This document shows positions 45,041 to 51,488 of a DNA stretch of 64,000 nucleotides, piece after piece. Under the pieces are notes generated by a model that had not been told where the DNA came from, made no database searches, and saw only the letters and a program-made list of their open reading frames with translations. Origin of the DNA: Reyranella sp. CPCC 100927 (GTDB lineage: Bacteria; Pseudomonadota; Alphaproteobacteria; Reyranellales; Reyranellaceae); contig NZ_VOHA01000019.1 in assembly GCF_007859315.1 (NCBI RefSeq), forward strand, positions 1 through 64,000. The letters are read 5' to 3'. Both the position numbers and the translations under genes were made by a program. Position 1 is the first letter of the stretch; every line of letters starts with the position of its first letter.

Positions 45041-45145
45041 ACTGTCATCCCGGGCGCCCCTTCGACAGGCTCAGGAGAGGGATCTTTTGATGCAGACGCA
45101 CGGTGCGCCACGTCTGGAAGATCCCTCGCTACGCTCGGGATGACA
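45041..45145. repeat. Palindromic repeat family D
   Basis: GTCATCCCGGGCGCCCCTTCG on the left and TCGCTACGCTCGGGATGACAG on the right, with inner GAGGGATCTTTTGATG and GAAGATCCCTC. It sits between the hydrolase fusion and the flavoprotein gene. Confidence 0.75.
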
Positions 45146-45231
45146 GTCGCGACTCACACGAGCGCACGGCCGCCCGATGTCCGGGCCGGCCGGTATGGCG
45201 CGAGCGCGCGACCTGTCGCATAGTCGATGGC

Positions 45232-46143
45232 ATGAGCCGCATGTGGGATGTCATCGTGATCGGCGCCGGTCCGGCCGGCCTCAGTGCAGCGTCTGTCGTG
45301 GCGCGCGCGGGGCTGGCGTGCATGTGCATCGATCGGCTCGGCCCCGGCGGCCAGCTGATCAATTTCGGGCCACTTCATGACACGCCGGACCTGCCGGCGG
45401 GCACCACCGGTCCAGACCTGGTTGCGAGCCTGTCGGACACCATGCTGGAGGCCGGCGCCGAGTTGGCCGTCGCCGAGGTTGGCGCGTTGCGGCGTGACGG
45501 CGAGGGCTGGGTGGTCGCGACGGACGATGGCGAGCATCGCGCCCGCGGCGTGATCATCGCCACCGGACTGACGCAAGGCGCGCTGGGTATCGACGGTGAG
45601 GCGGGCTTCGAGGGACGCGGTCTGTCGTTCTGCGCCGCCTGCGACGGGCCGCTCTACGCCGGGCAGGATGTGATCGTCGCCGGCACCGACCATTGGGCGA
45701 TGCAGGAGGCGATCGAGCTGGCGCAGGTTGCCGCGCGGGTGACGATGGTGCATTCCGGCGGCCCCGTGTTCGGCGCGCACGAGCGGGTGGCGACCGCGAC
45801 GGCGCTGGGCAACATCGACATGGTCGAGGGCCGCATCGTGGCGCTCGACGGCGAGGACGGGCTGCAATCCGTCACGATCGCGCGCGACAGTGGCCGCGAC
45901 GTCCTGCCGGCGCGGGCCGTCTTTGTCTACACGCAGCGGATTCCGGCGGTCAGCTTTGCACGTGGGTCGCTTGACCTCGACGGCATGGGCCACATCATGG
46001 CGGATGAAGACTTGCGGCTGCCGGGCCGCACGCTGTTCGCTGCGGGCGACGTGCGGGCCCGGGCGCCGCAGCGGATCGCCAGCGCGATCGCCGATGGCGA
46101 GCGTGCCGGGCATGCCGCGGTGGCGGAACTGAAGACCAGCTAG
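45232..46143 (+). CDS. Thioredoxin reductase-like flavoprotein
   Basis: 303 residues, close to the about 310 of thioredoxin reductase. FAD motif VIGAGPAGLSAAS is at the N-terminus, the redox pair C134-AA-C137 lies in SFCAACDGPLYAG, and FAAGDVRARAPQRIASAIADG closes the FAD site. The second nucleotide site is odd: where NADPH-binding enzymes have G-G-G-N/D-S-A, this reads AGTDHWAMQEA, so the reductant may differ. The start could be the ATG at 45232 or the one at 45241; no clear ribosome site decides. It ends 10 nt before the UGSC selenoprotein gene and is a natural electron donor for it. Confidence 0.8.
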   Translation: MSRMWDVIVIGAGPAGLSAASVVARAGLACMCIDRLGPGGQLINFGPLHDTPDLPAGTTGPDLVASLSDTMLEAGAELAVAEVGALRRDGEGWVVATDDGEHRARGVIIATGLTQGALGIDGEAGFEGRGLSFCAACDGPLYAGQDVIVAGTDHWAMQEAIELAQVAARVTMVHSGGPVFGAHERVATATALGNIDMVEGRIVALDGEDGLQSVTIARDSGRDVLPARAVFVYTQRIPAVSFARGSLDLDGMGHIMADEDLRLPGRTLFAAGDVRARAPQRIASAIADGERAGHAAVAELKTS

Positions 46144-46153
46144 GGAGGTGCGC

Positions 46154-46672
46154 ATGCGCATCGTCAATCCGACTTTCGGCGTATCGGCGAGCGGCGGCGA
46201 GACAGTCGCCGTCAAGCCGGTCGACTGGCGTGCCGATCCGATCGCGTTGTTCTCCAACTCCAAGCCCAATGCGCGCGAGCTGCTCGAAGGCATCCGCGCC
46301 CGGCTGGCCGATCTGCGCCCGGTCGACAACATCACGTTCGTGCACAAGAACAGCGCCAGCCAGGGCGCACCGGCCGAACTGATCGAGCAGGTCGCCGCCA
46401 ACTACAGGGGTGCGCTGCTGGCGATAGCCGATTGAGGCTCCTGCTCATCGTGGAGTTTCCACGACTTCGTTGAACTGCAAAAGCGTGGCGTGGCGGCCTA
46501 TGTGATCGCCACCGAGACGTTCCGGCCGCTGGTCCTGGCGCAGGCCAAGGCCCGCAAGATCGAGCCGAAACTGATTATTGTGAAGCACCCGATCGGCGGT
46601 CTCAATGCCGAGGAACTTGCCGAGCGGATCGCAACGGCGTCGAACGGGTTGATCGCGGCCATCGGTACATAA
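46154..46672 (+). CDS. UGSC-family selenoprotein (in-frame TGA read as selenocysteine)
   Basis: 172 residues if the TGA at 46433-46435 is read as selenocysteine (residue 94). The frame reads ALLAIAD-U-GSCSSWSFHD and then FVELQKRGVAAYVIATETF, continuing uninterrupted to a TAA at 46670-46672. The U-G-S-C motif followed by S-S-W-S-h-H-D is the hallmark of the UGSC (seleno)protein family, whose function is unsettled but thiol/selenol redox-like. GGGAGGTGCGC precedes the ATG. A perfect 17-nt hairpin starts 12 nt after the TGA. Immediately upstream is a CxxC thioredoxin reductase-like gene. Without Sec decoding the product would stop at 93 residues and lose the active motif. Confidence 0.85.
46436..46464 (+). 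promoter_or_regulatory. Candidate bacterial SECIS hairpin
   Basis: Directly after the TGA come 12 nt, then TCGTGGA-GTT-TCCACGA (46448-46464), a perfect 7-bp stem with a 3-nt loop, or a 6-bp stem with loop AGTTT. In E. coli fdhF the SelB-binding upper stem-loop is 17 nt long and begins about 11 nt after UGA, so size and spacing agree. A G-U in the loop is also present. It lies inside the coding sequence, as bacterial SECIS elements do. Confidence 0.7.
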
Positions 46673-46836: not shown

Positions 46837-47877
46837 ATGAAGGACACGCCGGAGACCGAGCTGATCGACATTCCCGATGTCGACGCCGAGGCATGGAACG
46901 AGCTGGCGCTCGAGCACGGCTGGGGCGACGGCATGCCGCTGGCGATCCCGACCCAGGCCGCGGTCGACAAGTTCGTTGCCGTCTGTCGTGGCGACAACGA
47001 ACCGTTCGCGCCCGTATCGCCCCGCCAAGTGGTGCCGACGCTGGGCAGCCTGGCGGCCAACGCCGTGATGGCCGGCTGCAAGCCGGACTATTTTCCGGTC
47101 GTGCTGGCAGCGCTGCGCGCGGTGCTGACACCCAACTACAACCTGCACGGCACGTTGGCCACGACGCATCCCTGCGCGCCGATGCTGTTGGTCAGCGGCC
47201 CGATCCGCCAGACGCTCGACATCAACTGCGGCAGTAACTGCTTCGGCCAGGGATGGCGCGCCAACGCCACGATCGGGCGGGCGCTGCAGCTGATCCTGCT
47301 CAATGTCGGCGGCGCCAAGCCCGGCCTGATGGATCGCGCCACCCACGGATCGCCAGCGAAATACGCCTATTGCTTCGGCGAGAACGAGGAGGAGAGCCCG
47401 TGGACGCCGTATCACGTGCGGCGCGGCTTCGCCGCCGGCGACAGCGTGGTGACGGCGATGGCGGGCGAAGCGCCGCACAACATCAACGACCACGGCAGCA
47501 CCTCGGGCGAAGGCATCATGACCACGATCGAGAACACGATCGCGCAGTCCGGTGCCAACACCATCTACGGCAAGGGGCCGTACGTCCTGGTGTTGGGACC
47601 CGAGCATGCCGAAACGCTGCATCGCGACGGCTGGACAATCGAGGGCATGCAGAACCGCCTGTTCGAGCGGGCCCGCGTGCATGTCTCGCGCGTCTCGAAG
47701 GAAAACCAGGAGAGCTACGCCGGCTCGGACCACGTGCCGGTCAACGATTACTACAAGATCGCGCCGACGCCGGATGACATTCACATCCTGGTGGCCGGTG
47801 GTGCCGGCAAGCATTCGGCGTGGATCCCGTCGTTCGGCGGCACCGCGGTGCCGTCCGTCCGCATCGCCGGCGGCTAG
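46837..47877 (+). CDS. Conserved-cysteine protein of unrecognised family, partner of the UGSC gene
   Basis: 346 residues, soluble, no signal peptide. I do not recognise the family. Visible marks are GWGDGMPLAIPTQAAVDKF, NLHGTLATTHPCAPMLLVSG, DINCGSNCFGQGWRANATIG with C131 and C135, and KYAYCFGENEEESPW with C179. C135 and C179 are conserved in the paralog at 50532-51488; C131 is not. The close link to a selenoprotein and a thioredoxin reductase-like gene suggests redox or thiol chemistry, by inference. AGGACCCATC precedes the ATG. Confidence 0.7.
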   Translation: MKDTPETELIDIPDVDAEAWNELALEHGWGDGMPLAIPTQAAVDKFVAVCRGDNEPFAPVSPRQVVPTLGSLAANAVMAGCKPDYFPVVLAALRAVLTPNYNLHGTLATTHPCAPMLLVSGPIRQTLDINCGSNCFGQGWRANATIGRALQLILLNVGGAKPGLMDRATHGSPAKYAYCFGENEEESPWTPYHVRRGFAAGDSVVTAMAGEAPHNINDHGSTSGEGIMTTIENTIAQSGANTIYGKGPYVLVLGPEHAETLHRDGWTIEGMQNRLFERARVHVSRVSKENQESYAGSDHVPVNDYYKIAPTPDDIHILVAGGAGKHSAWIPSFGGTAVPSVRIAGG

Positions 47878-47996
47878 TCGCGCACGCACGCAAACAGAGA
47901 CAGCGCCGGATGCGATTTGCCGCACCCGGCTGCGCTTGCACACGCTGTGGTCACCCGATAGATAGTGAGCAATTGATCAGTTATGAGGGTGCGACC

Positions 47997-50369
47997 GTGG
48001 TCGACAAGGTCCAATGGACGACGCCCGCACAGCGTTCGCAGGGTGCTGCACCCGACGGTAACTTGATCGCGCTGCCAGCGGGCAGCCGTATCGGCAAGTA
48101 TCAGATCGTATCGGTGCTGGGGCAGGGCGGCTTCGGGATCACGTATCGCGCCCGGGACACCGAGCTCGACCGCGATGTGGCGATCAAGGAGTACCTGCCG
48201 ACCAGTTTCGCCGCGCGCCAGTCCGATTCGATGGTGCTGCCGCATTCGACCCAGTTGGCCGACGATTTCCGCTGGGGCCGCGACCGGTTCCTGGCCGAGG
48301 CCAAGACATTGGCGCACCTGGAGCATGCGACGGGCATCGTCAACGTCTATGACTTCCTGCAAGCCAACGGCACGGCCTACATGGTCATGGCCCTGGTGCC
48401 GGGCGAGACTCTGGAAGCGCGGCTGCGTCGCGACGGGCGTTTGCCGCAACCGGTCATCGAGCGTTTGCTCTATCCGCTGCTCGACGGGTTGGAGCAAGTG
48501 CATCGGGCGGGCTTCCTCCATCGCGATATCAAGCCGGCTAATATCCTGATCGACGCGCAGGGCGCGCCGTCGCTGATCGACTTCGGCGCCTCGCGCATGG
48601 CCTTGCAGGATCGCACCCAGGCGATGACCGCGGTCTATACGCCGGGCTACGCCGCCTTCGAGCAGATGTCGGCTGCACCGCAAGGGCCGTGGACGGATAT
48701 CTACGCGCTGGCCGGCACGCTCTATCACTGCATCGCGGGCGTGCCGCCGCCGCCGGCGCTCGATCGCATGGTCACCGACCGGCTGGTACCGGCGGTCGAG
48801 GCCGGCCGCGGCAGCTATGCACCCGGCCTGCTGGCGGCGATCGATGCCGGTCTGGCTTTGAAGGCCGATGCCCGGCCGCAGTCGATCGTCCAGTGGCGCG
48901 CACTGTTCGCGGGCGCAGCGGCATCGCCTGCCGCGATGCCGACAGACCCCGCGACGCGGCGCATGGACCATGCGCCGGCGACGCCGCGGCGGCGGGCGTG
49001 GTTGTGGCCGGCCATCGCGGCTGTGGTGGTGCTGTGCCTGGCCGTCGGTGGCGGCGGCTATGTCGTGCTGCAAGACCGCGCTCGCGCCGAACGCGAGCGG
49101 GTCGAGCTGCATGAGAAGGCGTGGGCGCAGGCCAAGGCCGCCAACACCGCCGCTGCCTACCAGGATTATATGAATCGGTATCCGACAGGCAGTCATGCCG
49201 CGGAGGCACGCCAGGCGATCGCCACGCTGGAGCAACAAAACAAAGGCGAGGAGGATGCCTGGGCGCAAGCGCGCGGTATCAACACCGACGCCGGCTATCG
49301 CGCCTACCTCGACCGCTATCCCGCTGGCCGCTTTGCCGCTGACGCGCGCCGCGAGGTCGAGCGCATCGAGGCCGAGGCGTGGGCCCAGGCCACGAACGCC
49401 AACACGGATGGCGGCTATCAAGAATACCTCCGCCGGTATCCGGCGGGACGCTTTGTCGTCGATGCGCGCAGCGCCGCGGAGCGCATCAGCCGCCTGCGGA
49501 CGCAGCAGCCGTTCCGCGACTGCGATCACTGTCCCCAGATGCTGGCGGTGCCGCGCGGCAGCTTCGTGATGGGAACGACGCCGGGCGAGGAAGACCGGGT
49601 GGAGGCGCCCTCGGATAGCCGTGGGGCGAGCCTGCCGCAGCACCCGGTGACGATCGGCAGGGACTTCGCGCTCGGCCGGTATCCCGTGACGCGCGGCGAG
49701 TTTGCCGCATTCGTGGCGGCAACCGGCTATGATGCCGGCGCGTCCTGCATCATCGTGACCAACGGCGGTGGCTATGCCGATACACAGGGAAGAAACTGGC
49801 GCAACCCGGGATTCCCGCAGACCGACCAGCACCCGGTGGTGTGTGTGTCGTGGAACGATGCGCGTGCCTACGTCGAGTGGCTGCGCAAGACGACCGGCAA
49901 GGACTACCGGCTGCCGTCGGAAGCGGAATGGGAATACGCGGCACGCGCTGGGACGACAACGGCGCGCTACTGGGGCGATTTCGCGGCCGACGCCTGCCGC
50001 TATGAAAACGTGTCGGACAAGAGTTTCGTCGACGGCCTGCGCATCACCAAGGACCGCAACAACTATTTCCAGTGTTCGGACGGCTACGTCTACACGTCGC
50101 CCGTCGGGTCGTTCGCGGCCAATCCCTGGGGTTTCTACGACATGCTGGGCAACGTGCTTCAGGCACAGTCGGACTGCCATCATGCCAGCTACAACGGGGC
50201 GCCGACGGATGGCCGCTCGTGGGACGACGGCGGCGACTGTTCCAAGCACGTCGTGCGCGGCGGCAACTGGGCCGAGGCCGCGTGGTTTGCGCGGACGGCG
50301 GCCCGCCGCGCCGGCCCGGCCGGCGTGCGTGTCAACTACGCAGGCTTCCGCGTGGCGCGCGGCAACTAG
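47997..50369 (+). CDS. Membrane Ser/Thr protein kinase fused to an FGE-sulfatase-like domain
   Basis: 790 residues from a GTG with GAGGGTGCGACC before it; an ATG at 47910 is the alternative. The kinase domain is at about 33-300: LGQGGFGITYRA, K64 in VAIKEY, HRDIKPANIL with HRD 175-177, and DFG 195-197. One membrane helix (WPAIAAVVVLCLAVGGGGYVV) is near 337-358. Three 37-residue repeats follow (AWAQAKAANTAAAYQDYMNRY and two like it). The C-terminal FGE-like domain starts MLAVPRGSFVMGT and includes RLPSEAEWEYAARAGTTT and NPWGFYDMLGNV. The active-site cysteines of true FGE are missing (VVRGGNWAEAAWFARTAAR), so this part is probably a sensor. Confidence 0.85.
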   Translation: MVDKVQWTTPAQRSQGAAPDGNLIALPAGSRIGKYQIVSVLGQGGFGITYRARDTELDRDVAIKEYLPTSFAARQSDSMVLPHSTQLADDFRWGRDRFLAEAKTLAHLEHATGIVNVYDFLQANGTAYMVMALVPGETLEARLRRDGRLPQPVIERLLYPLLDGLEQVHRAGFLHRDIKPANILIDAQGAPSLIDFGASRMALQDRTQAMTAVYTPGYAAFEQMSAAPQGPWTDIYALAGTLYHCIAGVPPPPALDRMVTDRLVPAVEAGRGSYAPGLLAAIDAGLALKADARPQSIVQWRALFAGAAASPAAMPTDPATRRMDHAPATPRRRAWLWPAIAAVVVLCLAVGGGGYVVLQDRARAERERVELHEKAWAQAKAANTAAAYQDYMNRYPTGSHAAEARQAIATLEQQNKGEEDAWAQARGINTDAGYRAYLDRYPAGRFAADARREVERIEAEAWAQATNANTDGGYQEYLRRYPAGRFVVDARSAAERISRLRTQQPFRDCDHCPQMLAVPRGSFVMGTTPGEEDRVEAPSDSRGASLPQHPVTIGRDFALGRYPVTRGEFAAFVAATGYDAGASCIIVTNGGGYADTQGRNWRNPGFPQTDQHPVVCVSWNDARAYVEWLRKTTGKDYRLPSEAEWEYAARAGTTTARYWGDFAADACRYENVSDKSFVDGLRITKDRNNYFQCSDGYVYTSPVGSFAANPWGFYDMLGNVLQAQSDCHHASYNGAPTDGRSWDDGGDCSKHVVRGGNWAEAAWFARTAARRAGPAGVRVNYAGFRVARGN

Positions 50370-50481: not shown

Positions 50482-50531
50482 TTCCACCAGGCCGAGATGC
50501 GCTCGTGTCGGTCTTGTGCCGAGTGCTCGCC

Positions 50532-51488
50532 ATGACGGATGACGCGCTGCTGCTGTTTGACGAGTCGACGTCGTGGGAGACGGCGCAGGCGACGCTGGAC
50601 GAGCAGGGTCTCGGCGACGGTTTGCCGCTGGTGATGCCGACGCAGCGCCGGCTCGAAGCCATGCTGGCCGGCATCGACCAGCCTGGCCGCAGTCGCGGTC
50701 CGATGCCGCCGCTGTTCGGCGAGCTCACGCCGGCAGCCGTTGCCTACAACTGTGTGCTGGCCGGCGCGCGACCGGGCGATCTGCCGGCGGTGCTGACCGC
50801 GGCCATGGCCTGCCTGGAAGCCGACTTCAACCTGCTGGGCATTCTCACCACAACCGGCACCACGGCGGTGGCGATGCTGGTGCACGGGCCGATGGCGCGG
50901 ACCCTGGGCATCAATGGCGGCACCAATTGCCTGGGGCCAGGCGTGCGCGCCAACGCCACCATCGGTCGGGCGCTGGCGCTGGTCCTGCGCAATATCGGCG
51001 GTGCGCGGCCGCAGGTCGGCGACATGGCGACCATGGGCCAGCCGGGCAAGTACACGTTCTGCTTCGCCGAGAACGACGAGGCGATCTTTCCGCCGCTGCC
51101 GCTACGCCGTGGCATGGGCGCCGACGCGGTGAGCGTGCTCGGCGTATCGGGAACGGCGGAAATCCTGCCGGCGGGTGACGGCGACACGCCCGAAGCGATC
51201 CTGCGGTCAGTCGCCACGGCGATGGCCGTGGCCGCATCGGTCGCTGCGCGCAAGCCCGCGCGCGGCGAGCAGGTGCTGCTGCTGCCGCCGGAACTCGCGC
51301 GCTTCCTCGTCCAGCACGGCTGGGACCTCGCCCGCGTGCAACGTCATCTGTTCGATGCGCACGCGGTGGCGGCCGCGCCCGGGGCGATCCATGTGATCGT
51401 GACCGGCGGTCCCGGCGTCAAGATGACTCATCTGCCGCTGTGGGCCGGCGGCACCCGCGTGGTGACGCGGCCGATTGGCATCGATTGA
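50532..51488 (+). CDS. Paralog of the 46837-47877 conserved-cysteine protein
   Basis: 318 residues. It shares with the earlier gene GDGLPLVMPTQRRLEAML, FNLLGILTTTGTTAVAMLVHG, NGGTNCLGPGVRANATIGRAL then NIGGARP, and KYTFCFAENDEAIFPPLPLRRG. C133 and C177 match the earlier protein's C135 and C179; the extra cysteine four residues before the first is glycine here. The family is unknown to me. The ATG lacks a clear ribosome site, and a GTG at 50505 is possible. It is followed after 10 nt by an acetyltransferase gene, probably in the same transcript. Confidence 0.7.
   Translation: MTDDALLLFDESTSWETAQATLDEQGLGDGLPLVMPTQRRLEAMLAGIDQPGRSRGPMPPLFGELTPAAVAYNCVLAGARPGDLPAVLTAAMACLEADFNLLGILTTTGTTAVAMLVHGPMARTLGINGGTNCLGPGVRANATIGRALALVLRNIGGARPQVGDMATMGQPGKYTFCFAENDEAIFPPLPLRRGMGADAVSVLGVSGTAEILPAGDGDTPEAILRSVATAMAVAASVAARKPARGEQVLLLPPELARFLVQHGWDLARVQRHLFDAHAVAAAPGAIHVIVTGGPGVKMTHLPLWAGGTRVVTRPIGID

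Follow-up and report, generated by a model that had tools for sequence, protein, structure and literature searches.

UGSC proteins form an already established selenoprotein family, which accounted for 8.2% of the selenoprotein genes in a later survey (PMC9402790) and was found in the GOS survey fused to a conserved domain termed 'Unknown_1' (PMC2398784). UGSC-motif selenoproteins have also been described from three genomes whose tRNA-Sec has the anticodon CUA. These accounts in the UGSC selenoprotein literature give the family no function, in agreement with the original prediction for this locus, which had called the function unsettled. For D-proline reductase, a mechanism has been proposed in which the substrate, bound by PrdA, is attacked by Sec of PrdB and then released by a Cys of the same subunit, which leaves an Se-S bond; the flavoprotein PrdC gives electrons (PMC3091704). 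The Sec of PrdB is residue 152 of 242, and that of GrdB, another selenoprotein B, is residue 350 of 436 (PMC3091704).

Analysis of a 64,000-nucleotide stretch of the Reyranella sp. CPCC 100927 genome (the window) revealed a new member of the UGSC family together with several neighboring genes (Table 1). These operon partners were absent from the original prediction and proved to be the more informative part of the locus.

Table 1. Features of the UGSC locus; coordinates are those of the window.
Feature	Coordinates	Strand	Basis or remark
Thioredoxin-reductase (TrxR)-like FAD protein with CxxC (FCAACDG)	45103..46143	+	TIGR01292 190 bits, cut-off 343
UGSC-family gene, predicted selenoprotein of 172 residues with Sec94	46154..46672	+	PF24696 114.6 bits
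TGA codon, predicted to be read as selenocysteine	46433..46435	+	Homologs have TGA or a Cys codon at the same site
Predicted bacterial SECIS hairpin (TCGTGGA, GTT loop, TCCACGA)	46448..46464	+	7 bp; loop 19 nt past the TGA
Partner A, 346 aa	46837..47877	+	No Pfam/NCBIfam match; conserved C81, C179, R148, E182
ORF with protein kinase and FGE-sulfatase domains	47820..50369	+	Between A and B
Partner B, 327 aa, paralog of A	50505..51488	+	Directly 3' of A in relatives

The UGSC reading frame is intact on both sides of its TGA. Translation from the ATG at 46154, which has GGGAGG 5' of it at 46143-46148, through the TGA at codon 94 to the TAA at 46670-46672 gave a product including IADUGSCSSWSFHD when TGA was read as U, and the frame contained no in-frame stop other than that TGA. 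The Pfam UGSC model, PF24696, matched residues 3-168 of the product and so spans the TGA (E-value 6.8e-33), with a score above the Pfam gathering score of 25 bits, bearing out the readthrough frame that had been proposed for this gene. The protein also carries the UGSC motif, which has Sec or Cys at its first position. In comparisons with five relatives, all of which have TGA at this site, dN/dS 3' of the TGA was 0.10, 0.10, 0.11, 0.12 and 0.16; the codons past the TGA are under purifying selection.

The NCBIfam equivalog model NF041046, 'UGSC family (seleno)protein', gave the window protein 105.3 bits against a cut-off of 125, and for this reason the gene was filed under the Pfam family and not under the equivalog. 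Four of nine relatives also scored below the cut-off, namely the proteins of Vineibacter terrae (103.6), L064 (112.6), the own-genome copy L026 (103.7) and the distant paralog L121 (55), and the other five (L139, L115, L101, L096 and the own-genome copy L025) scored 126.9-163.2. The clade of the window gene receives low scores from NCBI's model, and naming through NF041046 alone would miss the gene because of its score. The expectation that automated gene callers would split or miss the gene was borne out only to this extent.

The genome (9.08 Mb in 81 contigs) encodes selA (567 bits), selB (446 bits) and selD (271 bits), with selA and selB on the same contig, and a tRNA-Sec with anticodon tca (72.9 bits), all over their curated cut-offs; the Sec-decoding genes expected for a bacterial selenoprotein are therefore present. 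The same genome carries three UGSC copies with one TGA each, and UGSC was present in all 75 genomes searched of the same family, again with one TGA each among the matches listed. When public genomes were scanned with partner A as query and the best 80 loci were used, 76 of these loci contained a UGSC gene. Over all UGSC matches with the motif, at partner-A loci and other loci, the site codon was TGA in 111 of 115 and Cys in the remaining four, two of them haloarchaeal and the others from a Sphingomonadales MAG and a Binatia MAG. Four of 249 evenly drawn Pseudomonadota genomes contained UGSC. Two of these had selA over the cut-off, a tRNA-Sec by ARAGORN and TGA at the site; the two without selA had Cys at the UGSC motif, and their tRNA-Sec candidate, taking the best one only, was a tRNA-Ser by ARAGORN. 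One of these two Cys-type genes has a TGA farther downstream and looks broken. The original prediction had tied its own rejection to a lack of Sec-decoding genes in this genome and of homologs with Sec or Cys aligned at residue 94; both were found, and the gene passed.

The sequence just past the TGA fits a bacterial SECIS element. The published bSECIS model has a loop of 3-9 nt with G in the first two loop positions, a stem of 4-16 bp and a distance of 16-37 nt from the UGA (PMC13188914), and the window hairpin, which starts 12 nt after the TGA, falls within these constraints in its 3-nt loop, its stem and its distance. The codon seven places after Sec (U+7) was NGT in all 99 distinct Sec genes, three distant paralogs apart (0/3 with NGT), and in none of the four Cys genes (TGC, TGC, AGC and ACG). 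Where U+7 encodes Ser, the codon was AGT in 85 of 85 cases, whereas at other positions of these genes AGT made up 50 of 968 Ser codons (binomial p 4e-110, with no correction for relatedness). The stem covaries as well: at U+8 codons for Val or Leu, the third base was C after TGG (40/40) and G after TGC or GGC (24/24), so that the third bases of U+6 and U+8 formed 40 G-C and 24 C-G combinations without exception in 64 rows, and since these third-base changes are synonymous the stem stays paired. G and U were confirmed at the same two places past the UGA of E. coli fdhF, where we take them to be the loop bases. Folding z scores averaged -1.09 over 103 Sec genes and -0.25 in the control; the window hairpin taken singly was not more stable than its synonymous shuffles (z +1.3).

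Taken with the machinery, the site codons of the homologs and the purifying selection, the predicted SECIS hairpin supports the selenoprotein reading of the original prediction, and we regard it as very nearly certain that SelB and tRNA-Sec, with this intragenic hairpin, insert Sec at the UGA of codon 94, making the locus a genuine UGSC-family selenoprotein gene. That a stop codon interrupts the frame is what a pseudogene or a sequencing error with TGA as a plain stop would also produce, but relatives from several phyla have TGA at the same codon, and Sec machinery, SECIS and selection are all present, leaving this explanation a negligible probability.

The Sec genes fall into two forms that differ at U+6: of the 99 distinct genes, 67 have W there, 30 have C and 2 have G. 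In the UGSCxxW form, the partner gene lies downstream (66 of 68 Sec genes and all four Cys genes), and in the UGSCxxC form it lies upstream (34 of 36). The stretch D-U-G-S-C-S-S-W-S-F-H-D, earlier put forward as the family motif, is indeed present in the window protein but represents only one of these forms, UGSCxxW, so that Cys97 is the sole Cys left close to Sec in this copy.

The gene neighborhoods place UGSC in a module with the TrxR-like flavoprotein and the paralogous proteins A and B. In 75 of the 80 loci UGSC and A share a strand and lie no more than 576 bp apart, with UGSC upstream in 67 and downstream in 8, and the four Pseudomonadota genomes with UGSC were the same four that contained A. 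The remaining five loci comprise L141, with a divergent copy 1.6 kb off; L070 and L094, where A lies at a contig edge; and L127 and L140, which are partner-A homologs on Chloroflexi-type contigs with no UGSC in the sequence stretch covered. A and B were adjacent, with no kinase ORF between them, in 10 of the best 80 loci and in one more relative, which suggests that the kinase/FGE-sulfatase ORF, whose ORF start overlaps A (the true start is not set), is probably not part of the module. Homology of the TrxR-like ORF begins at about 45232. Besides the 80 loci, the comparison of neighborhoods took in the window and the two further UGSC regions of its genome, 83 stretches in all. In all 12 stretches that have the TrxR-like gene, including those of Actinomycetospora and Neobacillus, it lies directly 5' of UGSC, and one further relative has TrxR-like, UGSC, A and B in a row. 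The gene was not found in the other 71 stretches, some of which end at contig edges, including that of V. terrae and the other two regions of the same genome.

Neither A nor B matched Pfam or NCBIfam (threshold 0.001 for A), and a Pfam search of 56 members of the partner-A family at E-values up to 10 gave only scattered matches, the best at 0.019. Vineibacter is placed near Reyranella, and the partner A of V. terrae is 90% identical to that of the window. No description of a UGSC-A-B-flavoprotein module was found in the openly accessible papers on UGSC selenoproteins.

Recurring neighbors across the 80 loci were TctC (30), CoA-transferase III (17), enoyl-CoA hydratase (14) and MmgE/PrpD (11), each named from one cluster representative and counted without a genome-wide control; these genes point to catabolism of small carboxylates. 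They also bear on whether Sec in a genuine UGSC selenoprotein might bind a metal, a metalloid or a selenium or sulfur species that A and B process. Such a role would have precedent in SaoB, SaoC and UXX-star, whose Sec is thought to bind metals (PMC13188914), but among the 20 neighbor-cluster representatives scanned, which include the four named families, none was a metal-resistance protein, and we consider metal binding improbable.

The predicted structure of UGSC bears on its fold and on a second alternative. The model, built with 60 sequences (pLDDT 91.5, pTM 0.85), has five strands with a helix after each (DSSP order E-H-E-H-E-H-E-H-E-H), with Sec94 just before the third helix. N35, K37, K65, D93, F123 and H145, which are conserved in more than 90% of members, follow strands in the model. 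Fold searches with the model revealed nothing more specific than a common alpha/beta arrangement. A thioredoxin-like fold had been supposed for UGSC in the GOS paper (PMC2398784), and thioredoxin-fold selenoproteins likewise place UxxC at the start of a helix; the secondary-structure order of the model differs from theirs, in that the strand-strand hairpin of the thioredoxin fold does not occur, and the 24 NCBIfam families matched by 60 UGSC proteins at E-values up to 0.1 include no thioredoxin-fold family. The predicted structure thus argues against the earlier guess. The same evidence weighs on the possibility that UGSC, as a genuine selenoprotein, is a general reducer of thiol-disulfides or peroxides in which UxxC would form the redox pair, the TrxR-like protein would act as reductase and A and B would be clients or sensors. 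The UxxC motif, the TrxR-like neighbor and the supposed fold would all suit such a role; the secondary-structure order and the family matches do not, and the close pairing with A and the conserved Lys, His and Asn suggest a specific substrate. A general reducer is a serious candidate, though less likely than not.

Comparison with NCBIfam at E-values up to 0.1 suggested instead a link to selenoprotein B. The GrdB model TIGR01917 was matched by 23 of the 60 UGSC proteins (best 2.1e-6), GrdF by 9, PrdB by 8 (best 1.8e-5), the general selenoprotein B model TIGR01918 by 8 and GrdH by 5; UGSC itself and these families apart, no family was matched by more than two of the 60. The 23 weak GrdB matches stayed far below the GrdB cut-off, none of the curated cut-offs of GrdB, GrdF, GrdH or PrdB was approached, and the window protein matched UGSC only. 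In Pfam, the 60 proteins matched 12 families at E-values up to 0.1, and the GrdB family PF07355 was not one of them. Reckoned from the ends of the matches in five relatives, matches that are weak, depend on the motif and are lacking in the window copy, Sec falls at positions 341-347 of 431 in the GrdB model, 345-350 of 435 in GrdF and 142-149 of 238 in PrdB, close to the Sec positions known for GrdB and PrdB. Of three proteins with GrdB/PrdB matches, two lost them when four motif residues were masked, and the third kept a PrdB match at 0.085; one more masked UGSC protein had no such match even when unmasked. Similarly, hhalign against the PrdB-like proteins of relatives scored 26.8 unmasked, compared with 20.2 for the best of 100 shuffles, and 21.6 with the motif masked, when the best of 80 shuffles was higher (27.0). 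No PrdA or GrdE match was found by Pfam in A, B or the 56 members of their family. From these comparisons, a distant kinship between UGSC and GrdB/PrdB, as opposed to membership, seems probable.

Several variant homologs were also seen. At L141:5987-6436, a UGSC homolog reading GEGGN, in which Sec and Cys are both missing from the site, adjoins a partner paralog. A distant UGSC subfamily has the motif AUGSC or AUGAC (L121:1566-2012, L084:16497-16952, L122:11547-12053 and L072:4926-5360), and for the three of its members scanned PrdB was the best NCBIfam match after UGSC itself. Separately, L143 and L150-L156 contain short PrdB-like selenoproteins with VPVUPAC and an in-frame TGA that match only the C-terminal part of PF07355.

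We propose that UGSC provides the Sec subunit in a small reductase system working like PrdB/GrdB, with A/B, UGSC and the TrxR-like protein as candidates for the roles of PrdA, PrdB and PrdC. In this scheme, A together with B would offer the binding site for a small and probably anionic substrate, as the conserved Lys and His near Sec suggest. Sec94, close to N35, K37, K65, D93, F123 and H145, would then attack the substrate, and Cys97 would resolve the resulting adduct by forming an Se-S bond, which the flavoprotein from the gene just upstream would reduce again with NAD(P)H. The UGSC homologs L120 and L130 read HUGSS, with Sec kept and Ser in place of the next Cys, which weakens the role given to Cys97. 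That UGSC is a selenoprotein is near certain. Its chemistry is offered as a hypothesis, and we hold the mechanism as a whole tentatively, as a possibility with somewhat less than even prospects.

A broader reading would make the module a so far undescribed Sec-dependent reductase, distantly related to D-proline and glycine reductase but occurring beyond the strict anaerobes, in which a new substrate-binding family replaces the pyruvoyl subunit and which serves small-carboxylate catabolism in environmental bacteria; this reading is rather speculative. To our knowledge, the PrdB/GrdB enzymes known so far are confined to strict anaerobes, and Reyranella-like bacteria are not strict anaerobes, so that Sec-based reductive cleavage, if this proposal is true, would not be limited to that group. 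The partner family, the flavoprotein gene and the possible PrdB/GrdB link turn UGSC into a testable enzyme system.

Among described systems, the UGSC/Unknown_1 fusion of the GOS survey resembles the module in joining UGSC to another conserved domain (PMC2398784). Relatives of the window protein resemble PrdB, GrdB, GrdF and GrdH through weak, motif-dependent profile matches that put their UxxC near the corresponding model position; UGSC differs from PrdB/GrdB in being one short domain and in having a partner A without a Pfam match. By analogy, the arrangement shared with PrdB/GrdB may be an operon that combines the selenoprotein with a partner that possibly binds the substrate and a flavoprotein that supplies electrons.
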